Below are positions 20,588 to 29,800 of a stretch of 64,000 nucleotides of DNA, piece by piece. The first letter of the stretch is position 1, and each line of letters starts with the position of its first letter. The notes under the pieces are model-generated. The model was not told the DNA's origin and did not search any database. It was given only the letters and a program-made list of their open reading frames with translations. The stretch is from the NCBI RefSeq assembly GCF_900187015.1, contig NZ_LT906479.1, positions 1,116,001-1,180,000 of the forward strand, in the 5' to 3' direction. Source of the stretch: Serratia ficaria. Lineage in GTDB: Bacteria; Pseudomonadota; Gammaproteobacteria; Enterobacterales; Enterobacteriaceae. The position numbers and the translations under genes were made by a program.

Positions 20588-21430
20588 TTATTTCACCTCG
20601 CTTTCGCTGCGCACCCGTTCGATATGGATGGTCAGGAACATCGTCTCTTCGCTGGTCAGCCGGTGCTGATAATTTTTTTCGACGTGCCGGTTAATTTTTC
20701 CGGCGCAGGCGAATGACTCGCGGTATTTTTCCTTCACTACCTGATAGAGCGAATCGTCGTCGCTGTCGACGTAGTTTTTCCCCAGCAGCCGTTGGGCGAA
20801 GAATTTCAGATGGGTGACAAAGCGGTGGTAGCTCAACGCCTCTTCGTTGTAATCGAAACGGAAATGGTATTTGACGATGTTGAGGATCTCTTGCATCACG
20901 CGGGTGATGTGCAGGGTGTTGTGCATTTCGTCGTTGAGCTGGGCGTTGACCAGGTGCAGCGCGATAAAGCCGGCTTCGTCTTCCGGCAGGGCCGTTTCCA
21001 GCCGCTGGGCAATCAGCGCCAGGGCCTCCCGCCCGACGGCGAATTCGGCCGGATAGAGCTTTTTAATCTCCCACAGCAGCGCGTTCCTGATATCCAGCCC
21101 CTGCGCATGGCGCTGCAGCGCGAAGTGGATATGGTCGGTCAGCGTGATGTAGACGATGTTGTGCAGCTTGCCCGGCAGGCGCTGGCGGGCGAGGGTGATG
21201 ATCTGGTCGGCGGTGGCCACGCAGGCCAGCGGGATCTCCGCCAGCAGCTCCTTGTAGCGTTCGGCCATCTCGCCGCCATTGAGGGAAAACACCTTTTCGA
21301 TCAGGCTTTCGTCCAGCGCGTCGCCGGCCTTCTTTTTAAAGCCGATGCCTCGCCCCATCACCACCGTCTCTTCCTGACGGTCGTTCAGCGTAATCACCAC
21401 GTTATTATTGAGTATTTTAGCGATTTTCAT
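20588..21430 (-). CDS. BglG/LicT-family transcriptional antiterminator (orphan)
   Basis: A 280-residue protein starting MKIAKILNNNVVITLND at ATG 21430. Residues 1-56 form the co-antiterminator RNA-binding domain (MGRGIGFKKKAGD). Two PTS regulation domains follow (about 65-170 and 175-278) with the conserved histidines in TLTDHIHFALQRH, FIALHLVNAQLN, LSYHRFVTHLKFFAQRL and MFLTIHIERV. Such proteins bind a ribonucleic antiterminator and are controlled by phosphorylation from HPr and an EII. A textbook antiterminator element and terminator lie in its own leader. No EII or glycosidase gene is nearby, so it probably autoregulates and acts on a remote operon. Confidence 0.93.
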   Translation of the reverse strand: MKIAKILNNNVVITLNDRQEETVVMGRGIGFKKKAGDALDESLIEKVFSLNGGEMAERYKELLAEIPLACVATADQIITLARQRLPGKLHNIVYITLTDHIHFALQRHAQGLDIRNALLWEIKKLYPAEFAVGREALALIAQRLETALPEDEAGFIALHLVNAQLNDEMHNTLHITRVMQEILNIVKYHFRFDYNEEALSYHRFVTHLKFFAQRLLGKNYVDSDDDSLYQVVKEKYRESFACAGKINRHVEKNYQHRLTSEETMFLTIHIERVRSESEVK

Positions 21431-21463
21431 GGTTATTCCCGGATGTTTCAGCGCGCTGAAAAC

Positions 21464-21500
21464 CAAAAAACCCGACGCCCGGAAGCGATCCCGGGCGTCA
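21464..21500 (-). terminator. RAT-linked intrinsic terminator in the bglG-type leader
   Basis: On the minus strand GACGCCCGG-8-CCGGGCGTC is followed by GGGTTTTTT. The left arm starts inside the antiterminator element, so folding of that element excludes the terminator, as in the bgl and lic operons. Confidence 0.85.
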
Positions 21501-21579: not shown

Positions 21580-21616
21580 CGGTTTTCACCGCGGACTGCC
21601 GCCGCGGTCACATTTC

Positions 21617-22984
21617 TCAGTCACTGCCGGACAGCATCAGGTCCCGGGGCGCATTGCGACGCTGGTTTTTGGTCAGCAGGAAATAGAGGTAGCCGCAGGC
21701 CATCAGAGCAATGAACAGCCCACCAATGACCGGGTTAAACCACAGCATGGCGATCAGACAGATCAGCGCTAATACCAGCGCGATCGCCGGCACCAACGGA
21801 TACCCGGGAGCCAAAAAGCTGCGATCCAGTTCCGGTGCGATACGGCGCAGTTTGAACAGGCTAAGCATGCTCATCAGATACATTACGATGGCGCCGAACA
21901 CCGCCATCGTGATCATCGCCGCGGTCAGGCTCATGCCCTGGAGATTGATCCAGCCATCGCTGAAGATGGCGGCGATGCCGATCGCGCCGCCGGCCAGGAT
22001 TGCGCGGTGCGGCGTTTGAAATCGTGACAGTTTGGCCAAAGAGGTCGGCAGATACCCGGCGCGCGCCAGTGCGAAGAACTGGCGTGAATAGCCGAGAATA
22101 ATGCCATGGAAGCTGGCTACCAGGCCGAACAGGCCAATCCATACCAGCATGTGCATCCAGCCGGAGTTTTCACCGACAACCATTTTCATCGCCTGCGGCA
22201 GCGGATCGTTGATGTTTGACAGCTTGCTCCAGTCACCGGCGCCGCCCGCCAGCAGCATCACGCCCAAGGCCAATACCACCAGCGTCAGAATACCGGATAT
22301 ATAGGCGCGTGGAATGGTGCGCTTGGGATCCTTCGCCTCTTCCGCCGCCATGGCTGCCCCTTCGATAGCCAAGAAGAACCAGATGGCGAAAGGGATGGCG
22401 GCGAAGATGCCGGATAACGCAGCGCCGCCGAAATGATCGCTGCCCGCCCAACCGTTGAGAACGAAATTGCTGAAACTGAAGCCCGGTGCCACAACGCCCA
22501 TAAATACCAGCAGTTCGAATACCGCCAATACCGTGACGCACAGTTCAAACAGCGCCGCCAGTTTTACGCCGAGAATATTCAGCGTCATAAAGATTGCATA
22601 GGCGCCTACGGCCGCCCATTTGGGATTGAGCGCCGGGTATTGCACGTTGAGGTAAGCTCCGATCGCCACGGCGATCGCCGGCGGCGCGAATACGAACTCC
22701 ACCAGCGTCGCCAGTCCGGCGATCAGGCCGCCGGTTTCGCCAAAGGCGCGACGGCTGTAGGCGAAAGGCCCGCCTGCGTGAGGAATGGCGGTGGTCAACT
22801 CGGTAAAGCTGAAGATAAAGCAGCCGTACATGGTGGCGACCAGCAGGGTAGTGATCAGAAAACCGAGCGTTCCCGCCACCCCCCAACCGTAGCTCCAGCC
22901 AAAATACTCCCCGGAAATCACCAGCCCAACGGCAATCCCCCAAAGGTGCAGGGTGCCCAGAGTGGGCTTAAGTTGCATTGTCAT
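21617..22984 (-). CDS. APC-family amine permease, ethanolamine permease type
   Basis: A 455-residue transporter started at ATG 22984 behind GGGAG (MTMQLKPTLGTLHLWGIAVG). It has about 12 membrane segments. Markers of the ethanolamine/amino-acid APC subgroup are VISGEYFGWSYGWGVAG in helix 1, SFTELTTAIPHAGGPFAYSRRAFG after helix 2, and FLAIEGAAMAAEEAKDPKRTIPRAY. It lies 62 bases downstream of the class III PLP enzyme on the same strand and is probably cotranscribed with it. Import of ethanolamine or a related amino alcohol is inferred from family and context. Confidence 0.85.
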   Translation of the reverse strand: MTMQLKPTLGTLHLWGIAVGLVISGEYFGWSYGWGVAGTLGFLITTLLVATMYGCFIFSFTELTTAIPHAGGPFAYSRRAFGETGGLIAGLATLVEFVFAPPAIAVAIGAYLNVQYPALNPKWAAVGAYAIFMTLNILGVKLAALFELCVTVLAVFELLVFMGVVAPGFSFSNFVLNGWAGSDHFGGAALSGIFAAIPFAIWFFLAIEGAAMAAEEAKDPKRTIPRAYISGILTLVVLALGVMLLAGGAGDWSKLSNINDPLPQAMKMVVGENSGWMHMLVWIGLFGLVASFHGIILGYSRQFFALARAGYLPTSLAKLSRFQTPHRAILAGGAIGIAAIFSDGWINLQGMSLTAAMITMAVFGAIVMYLMSMLSLFKLRRIAPELDRSFLAPGYPLVPAIALVLALICLIAMLWFNPVIGGLFIALMACGYLYFLLTKNQRRNAPRDLMLSGSD

Positions 22985-23046
22985 GTCGCTCTCCCGATCG
23001 AAAAGGGTGCATAACCGGCCGAAGCGCTGCGCCGGCGCCGTGGTTG

Positions 23047-24354
23047 TCATTTGCTCAACACTTTCTCCAGACTGCTCACCAGAATCTCCGCGTGCTCACA
23101 GTTAAACACCAGCGGGGGGCGGATTTTCAATATGTTGGCATCGGGGCCCGAGGCGCCGATCAGCACGCCTTCTTCCCGCAGGGCGTTCACCGTCCTGAGC
23201 GCTGCCGCAGAGTCCGGTCGGCCCTCGGCGTCAACAAAATCTACGCTGACGAACAGCCCGGCGCCTCGAACATCGCCAATGGCAGCAAAACGCGACTGCA
23301 GTGCGCGAATGCCCTCGACAATCGCGTTACCTGCGCGCCGCACGCTCGGGATCAGGTTTTCCTGCTCGATCACTTCCAGCACCGCCAGACCGACCGCCGA
23401 AGAAACGGTATTGCCGGCAAAAGTGTTGAAGTAGCTCGATTCGCTGCCGAAGCGCTGCAGGATCTCCGGCTTGATGGTGATGCCCGCCATCGGATGGCCG
23501 TTGCCCATGGGCTTGCCCAGCGAGACGATGTCCGGCACCAGCCCATGGCGCTGGAAGCCCCACATATGTTCGCCGGAGCGGCCGTAGCCCGGCTGCACTT
23601 CATCGGCGATATACAGCCCCCCGGCCTGGCGAACCGCGTCCACCGCCTCGCGCAGAAAACCTGGCGGATCGAAAAAACCCCCATCGCTGGTAAAGAAGGT
23701 GTCCACCAGCAATGCTGCAGGTTTTATGCCATGACGGCGCATGTCCTCCAAAGCGGTGCGTACGTCGGCGGCGAAACGTTTGCCCACCTCGGCAGGATTA
23801 GCGGGATTATGCACCGGTGCCGGGATCACTCTGGCGTCACGCCCCACCTTTACGTAGGGGCCCATAGAGGCGGAAAGCGCCGCGATAGAGGCGGTCATGC
23901 CGTGATAGGAGTACTCGGTGACGATCACGCCGGTACCGCCGGTGTAGTCTTCCGCAATGCGCAGAGCCAGATCGTTGGCCTCGCTGCCGGTGCAGGTAAA
24001 CATCACCTGGCTCAACGCCGGCGGCATGGTGCCAAGCAATTTCTCGGCGAAGTCCAGTACGTTCTCATGCAGATAGCGGGTATGCGTGTTGAGCAGCGAG
24101 GCTTGGCGACACAGCGCCGCCACCACGTGCGGATGGCAGTGGCCAACCGACGGCACGTTGTTGTACACGTCCAGATAACGCCGCCCCTCGGCGTCATGCA
24201 CCCAGACGCCTTCGCCGCGCACCAGATGCAACGGGTTCTGATAAAACAGCTCGTAGGCCGGGCCGAGCAGTCGGCGGCGGCGTTCGATCATCGCCAGGGT
24301 GGCCGGCGCGAGACCGCTACCGGCGGCCGCGTCAAAGGCATTGGTTTTCAGCAT
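23047..24354 (-). CDS. Class III PLP enzyme, probable amino-alcohol-phosphate phospho-lyase
   Basis: The 435-residue protein starts at ATG 24354 (GGAG eight bases upstream). It has the class III aminotransferase fold: DVYNNVPSVGHCHP, the PLP phosphate-binding CTGSEANDLALRIA, the Asp pairing with the pyridine nitrogen in IADEVQPGYGRSGEHMWGF, and the Schiff-base Lys in SLGKPMGNGHP. That last motif, plus YNNVPSVGH, is the pattern I associate with ethanolamine-phosphate and hydroxylysine-phosphate phospho-lyases (AGXT2L group) rather than true transaminases. It is divergent from an APH-fold kinase and cotranscribed with an ethanolamine-type permease. Together these suggest uptake, phosphorylation and phosphate elimination of an amino alcohol. 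A genuine omega-transaminase is the alternative. Confidence 0.82.
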   Translation of the reverse strand: MLKTNAFDAAAGSGLAPATLAMIERRRRLLGPAYELFYQNPLHLVRGEGVWVHDAEGRRYLDVYNNVPSVGHCHPHVVAALCRQASLLNTHTRYLHENVLDFAEKLLGTMPPALSQVMFTCTGSEANDLALRIAEDYTGGTGVIVTEYSYHGMTASIAALSASMGPYVKVGRDARVIPAPVHNPANPAEVGKRFAADVRTALEDMRRHGIKPAALLVDTFFTSDGGFFDPPGFLREAVDAVRQAGGLYIADEVQPGYGRSGEHMWGFQRHGLVPDIVSLGKPMGNGHPMAGITIKPEILQRFGSESSYFNTFAGNTVSSAVGLAVLEVIEQENLIPSVRRAGNAIVEGIRALQSRFAAIGDVRGAGLFVSVDFVDAEGRPDSAAALRTVNALREEGVLIGASGPDANILKIRPPLVFNCEHAEILVSSLEKVLSK

Positions 24355-24450
24355 GGGGAAATCTCCAGTTTGTAGGTCCGCAAGGCAAAGATGAAGGCTT
24401 GCCCCCATCGAGGCGGGTCGTTTGATAATGCCCATGAGGCAAGGGCAAGA

Positions 24451-24550
24451 CTTGACCCCGGATGGGCGACCGGCGGCATTGGCGGTCAACTTTTGTCCGA
24501 TCCGCCGATCGCTGGGCCATAAAGTCAAAATTTGGGGTTCCGAGGTCAAG
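24451..24550. promoter_or_regulatory. Divergent control region with inverted TTGACC half-sites
   Basis: Between the divergent phospho-lyase and kinase genes, CTTGACCCCGG (24451-24461) and CCGAGGTCAAG (24540-24550) are inverted copies matching at 10 of 11 positions, 78 bases apart. Two further GTCAA copies lie at 24485 and 24533. They may be sites for the AraC-family regulator at 25766. Confidence 0.35.
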
Positions 24551-24606
24551 CGAGGTGAGAGGGGGCATTTCATGCTGGAAGGCCACTGATTCATGGAGTA
24601 CGCCCT

Positions 24607-25617
24607 ATGACAGCAACACAGTACGACACTTTGGATAACCAGACGCTGCAGCAGCTTGCCGAACGGGGCCTGCGGCATTACCCCTTATCGCTCAATGGCC
24701 GGCTGAGGTTGCTGTGCCGTTCTGAAAATGCCACCTTCCGGCTGGATAGCGATGATGGTCGGCGTTTTGCGCTGCGCCTTCACCGCGCTAATTACCATCG
24801 GCGCGATGAGATCGAAAGCGAGTTGAGCTGGCTGGACGCGCTGAACGAACAGGGCATCCAGGTGCCACAGGCGGTTCGCGGAGCCGACGGCGAGCGGGTG
24901 CAAAACGTGGTTCTGGAGGATGGATCCGTGCGCCACCTGGTGATTTTCGATTGGATCGACGGTGAAATGCCGACTACCGGGGTTGATCCCCGAGCCTTCT
25001 TGCGGCTTGGCGAGATCACCGCGCAGTTGCATCAACATAGCCGCACTTGGCGGCCGCCGGCGGGGTTCAGGCGGATTGTCTGGGATCATCCCTCGATGAT
25101 CGGAGAAAAAGGGCACTGGGGTTGTTGGCGGGAGGCGCCGTATCTGGCGAGGGCCAGCCATCGGCTCATTGAAGAAGCGCTGGTGCGGGTGAATGACGAA
25201 CTGTTGGCCTATGGTCAGGCACCCCAGCGTTACGGGCTGATCCACGCCGACCTGCGGTTGAGCAATCTGCTGTTGCAAGGGGAGGAAACGCGGGTCATTG
25301 ACTTCGATGACTGTGGTTTTGGCTGGTATTTGCATGATCTGGCGGCGGCGATCAGCTTTGTCGAACATCATCCGCGGGCGCAGGAGTGGGTCGCGCATTG
25401 GTTGGCAGGCTATCAACATATCTGCCCGTTAGATGAGCGCGATCTGGCTATGGTGCCAACGTTTATCATCCAGCGGCGCATTCAGCTTTTAGCCTGGGCG
25501 GGTTCCCATGCGGAAACTGAAATGGCGCGTAGCCTGGGCGATGGTTGGGCGACGGACAGCGTGCGCTTGTGTCGCCGCTACCTGGAAACCGACCTTCTGC
25601 CCGTCGGCTCCCTCTAA
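24607..25617 (+). CDS. APH-fold kinase, probable amino-alcohol or hydroxylysine-type kinase
   Basis: A 336-residue protein of the aminoglycoside-phosphotransferase/choline-kinase superfamily. The nucleotide-anchoring lysine region is replaced by FALRLHRANYHRRDEIESELSWL. The Brenner catalytic loop is YGLIHADLRLSNLLL (HxDxxxxN) and the metal-binding motif is VIDFDDCGFGWYLHDLA. This layout fits hydroxylysine kinase, homoserine kinase II and SrkA relatives. It is divergent from the phospho-lyase and permease genes and followed by an AraC-family regulator, so I infer that it phosphorylates the amino alcohol on which the lyase acts. It could instead act on a protein or an antibiotic; context argues against that. 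Confidence 0.78.
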   Translation: MTATQYDTLDNQTLQQLAERGLRHYPLSLNGRLRLLCRSENATFRLDSDDGRRFALRLHRANYHRRDEIESELSWLDALNEQGIQVPQAVRGADGERVQNVVLEDGSVRHLVIFDWIDGEMPTTGVDPRAFLRLGEITAQLHQHSRTWRPPAGFRRIVWDHPSMIGEKGHWGCWREAPYLARASHRLIEEALVRVNDELLAYGQAPQRYGLIHADLRLSNLLLQGEETRVIDFDDCGFGWYLHDLAAAISFVEHHPRAQEWVAHWLAGYQHICPLDERDLAMVPTFIIQRRIQLLAWAGSHAETEMARSLGDGWATDSVRLCRRYLETDLLPVGSL

Positions 25618-25622
25618 GAGCG

Positions 25623-25667
25623 CACCAAAAGTAGGCGGCACGGCGGCGAAAATGCGCATTTTTGGTG
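25623..25667. promoter_or_regulatory. Nested palindromes before the AraC-family gene
   Basis: CACCAAAA (25623-25630) and TTTTGGTG (25660-25667) are perfect inverted arms. The right arm overlaps a second, perfect 14-base palindrome AAAATGCGCATTTT (25649-25662). No T-run follows, so an operator is more likely than a terminator of the kinase gene. Confidence 0.4.
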
Positions 25668-25765
25668 ATTTGTCTTCCGCCGGTGAGAGGCTCAAGAGTG
25701 GCGCGCCAAGCTGGTATGGAAGTTGCTTTTCTTTCTGCAACCTGACAACCACCGTGGGGTGAAAC

Positions 25766-26830
25766 ATGCAGACGGCGCTTTCCCGCCAACCGGGAGTGGT
25801 CACTCATCTGGAAGCCGGCCTGATGCAAGGCAATCGCGGCGTTCTGGCCGCCGCCGCCAGCGGCCTGAGCGAGTTTATTCGGCACAAGGGAGGGGATGCC
25901 GATCGGATTTTCGGCATTGCCGGCATTGACGAGCGGATGCTGAGTTGCCCGACACTCAGCATTGGTCTGAGCAACTATTGTCAGGCGCTGGAGCAGGCGG
26001 CGCGCTATTCCGGTTGTGATAATTTCGGTTTGCACTACGGGCAGCAGTTCAGGCCGCAATCGTTAGGCCTGATCGGCTATGTCGGCCTGTGTTCGCCTAC
26101 CGTGGAGTCGGCGTTGAAGAATCTGGTGGCGGCTTTCCCCCATCATCAGCACAGCACGCTGACGCGCTTGGTGGACCGGGGAGATCACTATCGCTTCGAC
26201 TACCAGGTACAGCATGGCGGAATTTTATGTAAGCGGCAGGATGCCGAACTGACATTGGGGATGGTGATGAATCTGATTCGCCACTCACTGGGTAAACGCT
26301 GGTCGCCGCGAGAGGTCCATTTTGAACATCCGCGCCCGGCCAGTTGGCATGAGCACTGTAAACGGTTCGACGCGCCGGTGTATTTCGATCAACCCTATAA
26401 TTCGTTGCTTCTGCCGAAGCGCGATCTCGGTAGGGCGATGCCGGAACAAGACGGTATTTTGTTGATGGTGGTACAAGACGCTATCTGCCGGCTGAATGCC
26501 CATACGCCGGCACAGACGCTGGTGGACGGCACCCGCGCACAGCTGCGCCTGGCATTGTTGAGCGGCGAGCCGGTATTGGAAAACATCGCCGAAAAGCTCG
26601 GCATGTCTGCCGGCTCGCTGCAACGCCGCTTGCGCGAACAGGGGCTGACTTTCACCTCGCTGGTGGATAAGGTGCGCTGTGAGCTGGCGACCCATTATTT
26701 GCAACAGCGGCACCTGCCGATTTCCGAACTGGCGCTGCTGTTGGGCTATTCCGAGGTCAGCGCGTTTTCGCGGGCCTTTCGCCGTTGGTTTGGCATCAGC
26801 CCGCGCCAGTGGCGACAGGCGCCGGTTTGA
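25766..26830 (+). CDS. AraC-family transcriptional regulator (OruR/ArgR-like, long N-terminal domain)
   Basis: A 354-residue regulator with the long N-terminal arabinose-binding-like domain typical of OruR-type AraC proteins (YCQALEQAARYSGCDNFGLHYG; PQSLGLIGYVGLCSPTVESAL). The C-terminal double helix-turn-helix has ENIAEKLGMSAGSLQRRLREQG and ISELALLLGYSEVSAFSRAF, ending FGISPRQWRQ. Such proteins usually control catabolism of amino acids or amines. It follows the kinase gene by 148 bases containing nested palindromes and is the likely regulator of the amino-alcohol locus. Its stop is four bases from that of the convergent sbcC. Confidence 0.88.
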   Translation: MQTALSRQPGVVTHLEAGLMQGNRGVLAAAASGLSEFIRHKGGDADRIFGIAGIDERMLSCPTLSIGLSNYCQALEQAARYSGCDNFGLHYGQQFRPQSLGLIGYVGLCSPTVESALKNLVAAFPHHQHSTLTRLVDRGDHYRFDYQVQHGGILCKRQDAELTLGMVMNLIRHSLGKRWSPREVHFEHPRPASWHEHCKRFDAPVYFDQPYNSLLLPKRDLGRAMPEQDGILLMVVQDAICRLNAHTPAQTLVDGTRAQLRLALLSGEPVLENIAEKLGMSAGSLQRRLREQGLTFTSLVDKVRCELATHYLQQRHLPISELALLLGYSEVSAFSRAFRRWFGISPRQWRQAPV

Positions 26831-26834
26831 ACTG

Positions 26835-29800
26835 CTATTCCAGTCGGAACTGAGGCTCCAGCCGGCTGATGCCGAGGCCGTTGACCTTTTTCACCTTGAT
26901 TTGCACCGGAATACGCTCCTTCATCGCTTCGACGTGGCTGATCACGCCGATGGTCTTGCCGGAGGCGTTGAGGCTGTCCAGCGCATCCAGCGCGGTATCG
27001 AGGGTTTCGGCGTCCAGCGTGCCGAAGCCTTCGTCGAGGAACAGCGAGTCGATGCTGGTTTTGTGGCTCACCAGGTCGGACAGCGCCAGCGCCAGCGCCA
27101 GGCTGACCAGGAAGCTCTCGCCGCCGGACAGGGTGCGAGTGTCGCGCAGCGCATCCGCCTGCCAGGTATCCACCACCTGCAGCTCCAGCGCGTCGCTGGT
27201 TTTGCGTTGCAGCAGGTAGCGCCCGTGCAGCCGGCCGAGTTGGTTATTGGCCAGGTAAACCAGATGATCGAGCGTCAGCCCCTGGGCGAAGCGGCGGAAT
27301 TTGTCGCCCTCTTTGGAGCCGATCAGCTGGTTGAGATAGCTCCAGTCGTCGTACTGCCGTTGGCTCTGGGTGATTTGCTCGAACAGCGACTGCTGATTGA
27401 GGCGGCGGGCGGCATCGCTCTCCAGCTGGTTGCGCACCTCGCCTTGCCGCAGCTGCAGCGCCTTCAACTGCTGCGCCAGTGCGGCCAGCGCCTGGTTGAG
27501 GGCGTCGGCGTCGGCGACGGTTTCATCCATCCCTTCAGGGCGGTTTTGCAGCAGCTGCTCCAGAGACTGCGCGGCCTGCGCCAACAGCGCGGCGGCCTCC
27601 ACCTGCCGCTGTTGCAGCCGCTCTTTGCGCTGCTGCAATTCGCGGCGCAGGGCGTCGTCCAGCAGTGCGGCGCTAAAGGCGGCTTCGTCGGCGAATTCGC
27701 TGTCGGCCAGCGCCTGCAGCCAGTGCTGTTCCGCCTGTCGCAGCCGCTCCTGCATCTGGCTGTGCTGTTGTTGCAGCCCGGCCTGCTGGCCGGCCAGGCG
27801 TTCGCGCAGTTCCTGCGCCTTTTGCCACTGCTCGGCGGCCTGAGCACTGGCCTGTTCGCAGGTGGTTTGTTTGGCGCGCAGCTGTTCGCGCACCTGAGCG
27901 ACCTGCTGTTCGCCGAACAGCGCCAGCCGCTGTGCGCGACGTTCGGCGAGGGTTTTCTCGCCTTCTTGCCAGCGTTGTTGCAGGTCTTGCTGCTGTTGCA
28001 GGCTGTCGGCATGGGTTTTCTGCAGCAGCGTAAAGCGCTCTTCGAGCAGCGCCAGCTGTTGCTGCGCCTGCTGCTGTTGCGTTTGCAGAGCGGCGAGCGC
28101 GTCTTTCGCCTGTTGTACCGCCTGTGCCGCCTGTTCATGCTGCTGCAGCGCCTGTTGCCCGCGCCGCTCTTCATCGTCGCAGCCGTTCAGCCAGGCGCTG
28201 AGTTGCTCGCCATCCGCCAGCGCAAAGTCGAATGCCAACGGCGCGCTGAGCTGCTGCCACTGTTGCCGTTGGGCGGCCAGCTGCTGTTCATCCTGCGCGA
28301 TAGCCTGTTGCTGGCGCTGCAATTGCTGTTGCAAGTTGTCGTAACGGGCTCGCAGTTCGACGCCCTGTTTTTGCAATGCTTCGGTCTGGATTTTCATTTG
28401 TTCCAGACGTTGCGCAGTTTCTGACAGCTTTACCTCTTGATATTGTTCTACCGCCGGATGCCGGCACGAGCCGCACAGTGGGCAGGGAGCGTCGGGCTGC
28501 AAACGTGCGCGCTCGGCTTCCAGACCAACGATCCGTTGTTCCAGCGCATACGTTTTTTCAACATCGGCCTGATGGGTTTTCTGCTGCTTAAATTGCTGAC
28601 GGACGAGTTCCAGCTGTGGCTCCAACCGGGTCAGTTCACTTTGACCGGTGTGCAACTCTTGCCGCTGCTGTTCCAGTCGTTTAACGGTTTGCTGTGATAA
28701 GGAAGAGAGCGTGAACAGCTGCTGGCGCGTCGGGCGCAGATCCGCCAGGGCGCTCAGGCGCTGGCGCAGCGGGGCCAGCGGCGTTTGCGTCTCCAGCGTT
28801 TGCTGCTGCCGTTGTTGAACGGCCAGCGCTTCGGTCAGCGCGTTCAGGCGCTGCTGATGCTGCGCCCCCTGCGTCGTCAGCTGGCCGCGCTGGACGCTGA
28901 GCTGCTCCAGCGCCGCCCGCTGCTGGGCGCACTGCTGCGCGGCGGTATCGCCGGCCTGCCGCCGCTCGGCCTGCGTCGACTGCAGTTGGGCTATCTGGTG
29001 ATCGAGCGGCGCGACCTGCTCATCGATCAGTCGTTGCTGTTGCCGCATCCGTTCGGCATGGGCTTGCTGCGCCAGGCGGGTTTTCTCCACCGCCTGCTGC
29101 AGCGGCGTCAGCTGCGCCGAGTGCCGTTCCTGTTGCTGCGTCAGCAGGGCTGCCTGCTGTTGTATCGTCTGCAGCTCGGCACGGCAGCGATCGCGTTCGT
29201 TGCGCAGCGGGCGCAGCTGTTCGGCCGGTTCGCTGCGCGCCAATTGCCGCAGCTGCGGGGCGGCGTCGGCCTGTTCGCGCTGCACGCCGTCCAGCTGCCG
29301 TTGGCTGTTATCCCGCTGCAGCCGGAGGCGCTGCCACTGCTGCAGCCAGCCCAGCGCCTGTTGCTGCCGCTGATTCTGCCGGCTGAGCGCCTGCTCCTCC
29401 GTCGCCAGCTCCGCCTGCAGGGTTGCCAACCGTTGGCGCTGCTCGTCGTTCAGCAGCTCGATGCCGCTGGCGCGCTGGTGCAGCGCATCCAGATCGGCCT
29501 TGGCCTGCTTGTGCCGTTCGAACACCTGCTCCGACAGGCGGCCGTAAATCTCGGTGCCGGTCAGCTCTTCCAGCAGCTCGGCGCGGTCATTGGCGTCGGC
29601 GTTGAGGAAGGCGGCGAACTGCCCCTGGGACAGCATCATCGACTTGGTGAAGCGGCCGAAATCCAGCCCGGTGATGGCGGCGGTCAGCTCCAGCTTGTCG
29701 CGCACCTTGTCCGCCAGGATCTTGCCGTCCTCGCGCAGCGCCAGCTCGACCTTCGGCGCCTGCAGGTTGCCGTCCGGGGCGTTTTTGGCCCGGCGCTGGC

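Follow-up and report, generated by a model that had tools for sequence, protein, structure and literature searches.

Positions 21617 to 26830 of a 64,000-nucleotide stretch of Serratia ficaria DNA (contig NZ_LT906479.1; the whole stretch is called the window below) carry genes for a permease, a pyridoxal phosphate (PLP) enzyme, a kinase and an AraC-family regulator. The question that this locus raises is whether the four genes form one pathway, with the PLP enzyme eliminating phosphate from the product of the kinase, or whether the PLP enzyme is a transaminase. We conclude that the locus is very probably an amino-alcohol catabolic module without a microcompartment shell, in which the substrate would be imported, phosphorylated and then stripped of phosphate and ammonia to give an aldehyde. 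The permease would import ethanolamine or 1-amino-2-propanol, the kinase, of the APH fold, would phosphorylate the hydroxyl group using ATP, and the PLP enzyme would remove phosphate and then ammonia, leaving acetaldehyde or propionaldehyde for an aldehyde dehydrogenase encoded elsewhere. The AraC protein would sense the substrate or its phosphate and act at an array of GTCAA words in the intergenic region that separates the kinase unit from the divergent lyase-permease unit. The features are as follows.

21617-22984, minus strand: APC-type permease of the ethanolamine permease family, 455 aa; its open reading frame opens at 23050 and the start at 22984 is preferred
23047-24354, minus strand: PLP enzyme of the class III fold, predicted amino-alcohol-phosphate phospho-lyase, 435 aa
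24355-24606, no strand: divergent intergenic region between the lyase and kinase genes
24452-24549, plus strand: candidate AraC operator array, with TTGAC at 24452 and GTCAA at 24485, 24524 and 24545
24607-25617, plus strand: APH-fold small-molecule kinase, probable amino-alcohol kinase, 336 aa
25766-26830, plus strand: AraC-family regulator with Arabinose_bd and HTH_18 domains, 354 aa

An earlier, sequence-only reading had placed four genes in this span, and all four are present and intact, the permease and lyase genes running leftwards and the kinase and araC genes divergently from them; two starts were corrected. The relatives listed for the permease are mostly 453-460 aa long and span 95-96% of its 477-aa open reading frame, so the start at 22984 is the most likely one. 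The lyase gene starts at 24354 with MLKTNAF, and 13 of 13 aligned relatives open with MLKTNAF or MLKVNAF; the database copy, P0001, also has 435 aa. The motifs quoted in that reading are all in place, HADLRLSN at residue 213 and DFD at 232 of the kinase, and YNNVPSVGH at 64 and SLGKPMGNGHP at 278 of the lyase. Between mak and sbcC the genes recognised were licT and those for the permease, lyase, kinase and AraC protein, with no bacterial microcompartment shell gene among them.

That the PLP enzyme is a phospho-lyase, as had been proposed from its motifs, is supported by sequence scores against solved chains, by a tree and by diagnostic residues. Its Pfam assignment is Aminotran_3. Among the matches to solved chains that were listed (best 60 of 191), 5g4i/5g4j, named 'phospholyase' and presumably from Arthrobacter, scored 369 bits and 6tor, human ethanolamine-phosphate phospho-lyase (ETNPPL; EC 4.2.3.2), 342 bits, the others reaching 166 bits at most. 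In a tree of 79 rows (the window enzyme, the two PDB stretches and a selection of 76 loci), 72 rows including the window and both PDB phospho-lyases formed a clade with 100/100 support, and the seven rows outside it were class III-type matches from the same genome. The first split within the clade separated human ETNPPL and eight rows from 63 rows that include the window and 5g4i (support 97/93 and 97/92), so the window enzyme is bracketed by characterised phospho-lyases. Clustering with omega-transaminases had been set beforehand as the outcome to look for; the enzyme groups instead with the two solved phospho-lyases. A profile made from the window and named loci gave at least 433 bits inside the clade and at most 202 outside it, the PDB stretches being left unscored.

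Among the residues that set the clade apart, each kept by at least 97% of its members and present in no more than one of seven outsiders, are N65, N66, R93, R132, W265, P282, N285, F309, N310 and K410, and K281, N65, N66, R93, R132, P282, F309 and K410 are common to the window lyase, 5g4i and 6tor. Position 410 is Lys in 72 of 72 clade rows and Arg in four of the seven outsiders, and the Glu of a QGEGG motif is found in four of the five own-genome outsiders shown but in none of the five clade members shown. In γ-aminobutyrate transaminase the Arg at the equivalent of position 410 binds the substrate carboxylate and this Glu is its gate; the loss of both fits a protein that would not run the two-substrate transaminase cycle. 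Two marks of a class III omega-transaminase, clustering with transaminases and Arg at position 410, are thus both missing from the window lyase. Like 6tor and 5g4i, it carries the NNV, GKPMGNG and LK.(R/K)PP signatures besides falling in their clade; unlike them, it belongs to a gammaproteobacterial subfamily, known from sequence, whose gene lies beside those for a kinase, a permease and an AraC protein. An excerpt of PMC8154272 presents ethanolamine-phosphate phospho-lyase and one close relative as the only lyases documented in the subgroup before the enzyme reported there. Public names seen for relatives of the window lyase are mostly 'aspartate aminotransferase family protein'. Separately, lyase relatives in other families (L012, L021, L022, L024, L122 and L128; L and G numbers denote loci and genomes of our samples) lie within open frames of ~780-1040 aa, which are possibly kinase-lyase fusions like PRK06148/PRK06149.

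The APH-family protein (Pfam) is a probable amino-alcohol kinase. Its closest solved chain is 6ef6 (264 bits; the next, an amicoumacin kinase, reached 68.5), the two are nearly alike around HADLR and DFDDCGFGW, and the APH catalytic motifs are intact. The PDB names 6ef6 an 'aminoglycoside phosphotransferase', and we take it to be the Mycobacterium (S)-1-amino-2-propanol kinase of Mallette and Kimber (2018), from an RMM/Aaum microcompartment. The permease scored 623.8 bits against TIGR00908 (ethanolamine permease; cut-off 381.75) and is 94% identical to a 455-aa 'ethanolamine permease' of Gibbsiella quercinecans. The regulator had been called an OruR-like AraC protein; the AraC family stands, but the best NCBIfam model is QhpR (310.6 bits, cut-off 250) and no OruR model was on the list. 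Its gene adjoins those of the kinase and permease in many loci.

As had been noted, no aldehyde dehydrogenase gene is present in the four-gene span; the rest of the genome was not searched for one. In Pseudomonas toyotomiensis (L036) such a gene stands between those for the lyase and the permease (ExaC model, 942 bits against a cut-off of 900), and in the Rhodococcus jostii region it lies among shell genes. These arrangements support an aldehyde as the likely product, and the ExaC-type enzyme hints, without settling the matter, at acetaldehyde and hence at ethanolamine as substrate. That the kinase and lyase act instead on another amino alcohol, hydroxylysine-like or plant-derived, appears unlikely. 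Two human sister enzymes reportedly act on phosphohydroxylysine and phosphoethanolamine, sequence cannot tell the substrate, and elsewhere in the family lyases occur with a distant kinase type and different neighbours; against this stand the permease, far above its ethanolamine-permease cut-off, the ExaC-type dehydrogenase in one cluster, and a nearest kinase structure that is taken here to be an amino-propanol kinase.

If the kinase and lyase work as a pair, as the sequence-only reading had it, their genes would be expected to travel together. In a scan of named species, limited to the 80 best of 583 loci that hold a lyase relative, an APH kinase gene lay within ~2.5 kb of the lyase gene in 78 loci (window type in 12, a distant type in 66); the other two are L057, which begins at the lyase gene, and L058, which shows no kinase. 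Other neighbours, named by eye, recur at L040-L108, an ABC-transporter ATPase in 27 loci, a deacetylase-like protein in 13 and an M20-type peptidase in 10, and with the distant kinase type they suggest that the substrate may differ there. Among 343 genomes of the family (E-value of 1e-80 or better for the lyase, 1e-60 or better for the kinase), the lyase was found in 55, the kinase in 47 and both in 46 (Fisher p = 9e-47, which overstates the association because related genomes are not independent). The lyase thus accompanies 46 of 47 kinases, bearing out the proposed pairing, and in the only kinase genome without it, G875, the kinase gene has two stops. The lyase gene of G827 has six stops and G804 gives partial matches to both genes, as if kinase and lyase decayed together. 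In a sample of 394 genomes of the order, which overlaps the family set (positives in common: G000, G496, G525, G637 and G666), all 13 kinase genomes carried the lyase. The two genes need not be neighbours: across 20 kinase regions that were fetched, the lyase adjoins the kinase in five and lies outside the stretch in 15, and all 15 of these genomes carry a lyase elsewhere. In 13 of the 15 regions the permease and AraC genes stand beside the kinase, an arrangement that points to import followed by phosphorylation.

Upstream of the kinase gene, the four sites of the array follow one another at steps of 33, 39 and 21, the last of which resembles the spacing of AraC half-sites. We compared the upstream regions of window-type kinases from the window and 39 other loci; L037, L048, L182, L183, L225, L230, L279 and L293 were left out, and the 40 regions are not independent, since L029/L221 and L180/L292 are near-copies. 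They contain 161 GTCAA/TTGAC words, against a mean of 28 and a maximum of 43 in 200 Markov resamples. At fixed steps of 33, 38-40 and 21, all 20 letters match in 29 of the 40 regions, at least 17 in 36 and at least 16 in 38, the poorest being L181 (13/20) and L035 (12/20); among 2,000 pieces drawn at random from DNA nearby, three reach 15, five reach 16 and none 17. In the whole genome, at the window spacing and with up to three mismatches, the only match is the locus itself, with none (the reversed control gave three), so no second array that might mark an aldehyde dehydrogenase gene was found on these terms. The array is probably the operator of the AraC protein, judging from its conservation and position. 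A single regulon covering the kinase and unlinked lyases was also considered and is rejected: the array precedes none of 21 unlinked lyases (best 14/20). Nor does it precede any of four lyases from genomes without the kinase.

The chromosomal site of the module was compared across related genomes. In a sample of 30 genomes of the genus (E-value thresholds of 1e-60 for the lyase and 1e-30 for the kinase), kinase and lyase were found in the window genome and in none of the other 29. The flanking gene sbcC is present in 27 of the 30, and the site was read in 16 of the 26 others. At 14 of these sister sites nothing matches any of the four genes; in 13 of them DNA similarity ends at 21616-21620 and restarts at 26836-26847, and the fourteenth (L271) also lacks licT. 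At the remaining two sites (L270:8406-10040; L275:8493-10090) a permease gene encodes a protein 97% identical to that of the window, with DNA identity of 87.5-87.6% in flanks of 83-88%, and is followed by an 81-83 bp remnant of the lyase gene; L270 also retains the tail of araC. In Gibbsiella (L276) the order is the same, licT, permease, kinase, araC and sbcC, but sbcC is preceded by ~2.4 kb of other DNA and the site has no lyase gene; its kinase is 98% identical to the named G. quercinecans kinase, and the lyases of this genome lie elsewhere. In Rouxiella (L030, L031) araC, kinase, lyase and permease genes stand between mak and sbcC, one or two further open reading frames separating them from sbcC. 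These patterns are most simply read as an old presence of the module at this site followed by repeated loss, S. ficaria being the sole full keeper in the sample. A recent transfer into this species alone is rejected as the main story, given the site shared with Rouxiella and Gibbsiella and the permease and remnants in sister species; an older transfer of the module between genera may have taken place. As to the neighbourhood, a LicT/BglG-type antiterminator gene (20588-21466) lies between mak and the module, and no protein of the phosphotransferase system is encoded among eight open reading frames scanned.

Several observations weigh against the reading of the locus as one catabolic module. 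The tree program flagged long branches, among them 5g4i, the outsiders and the branch linking the 72-row clade with L004/L005, and warned that some joins may be artefacts; it also noted an unusual composition in 6tor. The window-type kinase is missing from nine of the 55 lyase genomes of the family, among them G930, where the distant kinase type adjoins one lyase copy (L223), and from 15 of the 28 lyase genomes of the order sample. For lyases that lie apart from the kinase or in kinase-less genomes, 22 of 25 upstream regions (450 bases) carry TGTGTATTT, a word chosen by eye that occurs in none of the 40 kinase upstream regions (300 bases). A DeoR-family gene stands beside second-subfamily lyases (see below) outside the module in all four loci checked (L215, L217, L229 and L010). 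Unlinked lyases, without the array and mostly with TGTGTATTT, thus share no one visible control with the kinase and may have another use. In two of the 16 sister species the permease persists although kinase and lyase are absent. Finally, EutB, of the B12-dependent ethanolamine enzyme, was found in 25 of the 30 genus genomes, including those of the window, L270 and L275, so that ethanolamine has another route in S. ficaria, and the lone permeases may have been kept because of it. In L274 the EutB gene (L274:8285-10509) sits in a short cluster, with no permease or shell gene seen by eye within 19 kb.

The retention of a lone permease in two EutB-bearing species, and the apparently separate, DeoR-like control of unlinked lyases, would suit a scheme in which the permease serves only the B12-dependent ethanolamine ammonia-lyase while kinase and lyase recycle internal amino-alcohol phosphates. 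We find this scheme hard to credit, as a kinase would be superfluous if the substrate were already phosphoethanolamine, and kinase, permease and AraC genes stay together in those 13 of 15 regions where the lyase is elsewhere. A catabolic module fed by import remains the preferred reading.

How does this module relate to what is known? Erwinia carotovora is the old name of Pectobacterium, and Turner and colleagues reportedly described an amino alcohol kinase and an aminopropanol-phosphate phospho-lyase there in the 1970s; our literature search yielded nothing on that work. Mallette and Kimber (2018) are said to have described a Mycobacterium microcompartment (S)-1-amino-2-propanol kinase, widespread and commonly encoded beside a candidate phospho-lyase, to have credited the first description of the activities to work on Pseudomonas and Erwinia, and to have linked their kinase to the Erwinia enzymes. 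The sequence-only reading had suggested that the S. ficaria locus may be the genetic counterpart of the Erwinia activities. As a new idea this falls, because a kinase of the family has reportedly already been tied to those enzymes; the Erwinia link itself gains from two genomes. The kinases encoded in G525, G876 and G1062 share 93.7-94.6% identity with the Pectobacterium aroidearum kinase, so these genomes are probably Pectobacterium, and G525 (L212) and G876 (L290) hold araC, kinase, permease and lyase genes in one cluster. The reactions proposed for the window and those reported for E. carotovora are alike, but the lyase of the G525 cluster belongs to a second subfamily and is 47% identical to that of the window.

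The sister branch of this second subfamily is an enzyme from the microcompartment plasmid pRHL2 of R. jostii RHA1 (L182; support 99/97). That region holds genes for a kinase, a PLP enzyme of the phospho-lyase family, an aldehyde dehydrogenase and an ethanolamine permease. The window locus resembles this RMM/Aut-type locus in having kinase, PLP enzyme and permease genes in one region, but lacks its shell proteins and aldehyde dehydrogenase. The R. jostii enzyme, L182:6147-7754, an 'aspartate aminotransferase family protein', scored 612 bits against our phospho-lyase profile and falls inside the clade. The window kinase likewise shares its catalytic motifs with the presumed RMM/Aaum kinase 6ef6, its closest solved chain, whereas the locus has no shell genes and an AraC protein in place of the GntR regulator that an excerpt of PMC6620236 describes for the RMM-type cluster. 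In the same excerpt the microcompartment is predicted to use 1-amino-2-propanol, with the PLP enzyme called an aminotransferase and the phosphotransferase placed last; excerpts of PMC8156839, PMC6787980 and PMC8007038 cite an amino-acetone or aminopropanol role for it. That the window enzyme is instead an omega-transaminase whose substrate is an amine or amino alcohol, the kinase being unrelated or acting later, is very improbable, for although Pfam gives only Aminotran_3, most public names say aminotransferase and the microcompartment enzyme of Rhodococcus and Mycobacterium was proposed as one (PMC6620236), the scores against solved chains, the clade with both phospho-lyases, its diagnostic residues, Lys 410 among them, and the co-occurrence with the kinase all speak against it.

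Literature searches on the pathway returned nothing naming this locus. The type of pathway is already known elsewhere, and the locus adds an occurrence of it; what we add is the test of kinase-lyase co-occurrence, the cluster in probable Pectobacterium, the history of losses and the GTCAA array, the last without any claim that it is unpublished, as no literature search was aimed at it. A broader picture, which we offer tentatively and rate slightly below an even chance, is that Enterobacteriaceae have a B12-independent regulon in which an AraC activator acts at a rigid array (steps of 33, 39-40 and 21) on permease, kinase and linked lyase genes; that in many genera the lyase stands apart under DeoR-like control, a single phospho-lyase serving both imported amino alcohol and internal phosphoethanolamine; that the pair is gained and lost as a unit; and that AutA, the 'aminotransferase' of the Rhodococcus-type microcompartment, is also a phospho-lyase.

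For the enzyme activities reported decades ago from Erwinia carotovora, the locus provides candidate genes in lineages among which is probable Pectobacterium, and it supplies a candidate operator that can be tested. It also suggests that genes of the clade named 'aspartate aminotransferase family protein' encode phospho-lyases, and the microcompartment 'aminotransferase', as the excerpt of PMC6620236 presents it, merits re-examination. If our reading is true, S. ficaria would possess a B12-free route, needing PLP and ATP, to the nitrogen and carbon of ethanolamine or 1-amino-2-propanol.

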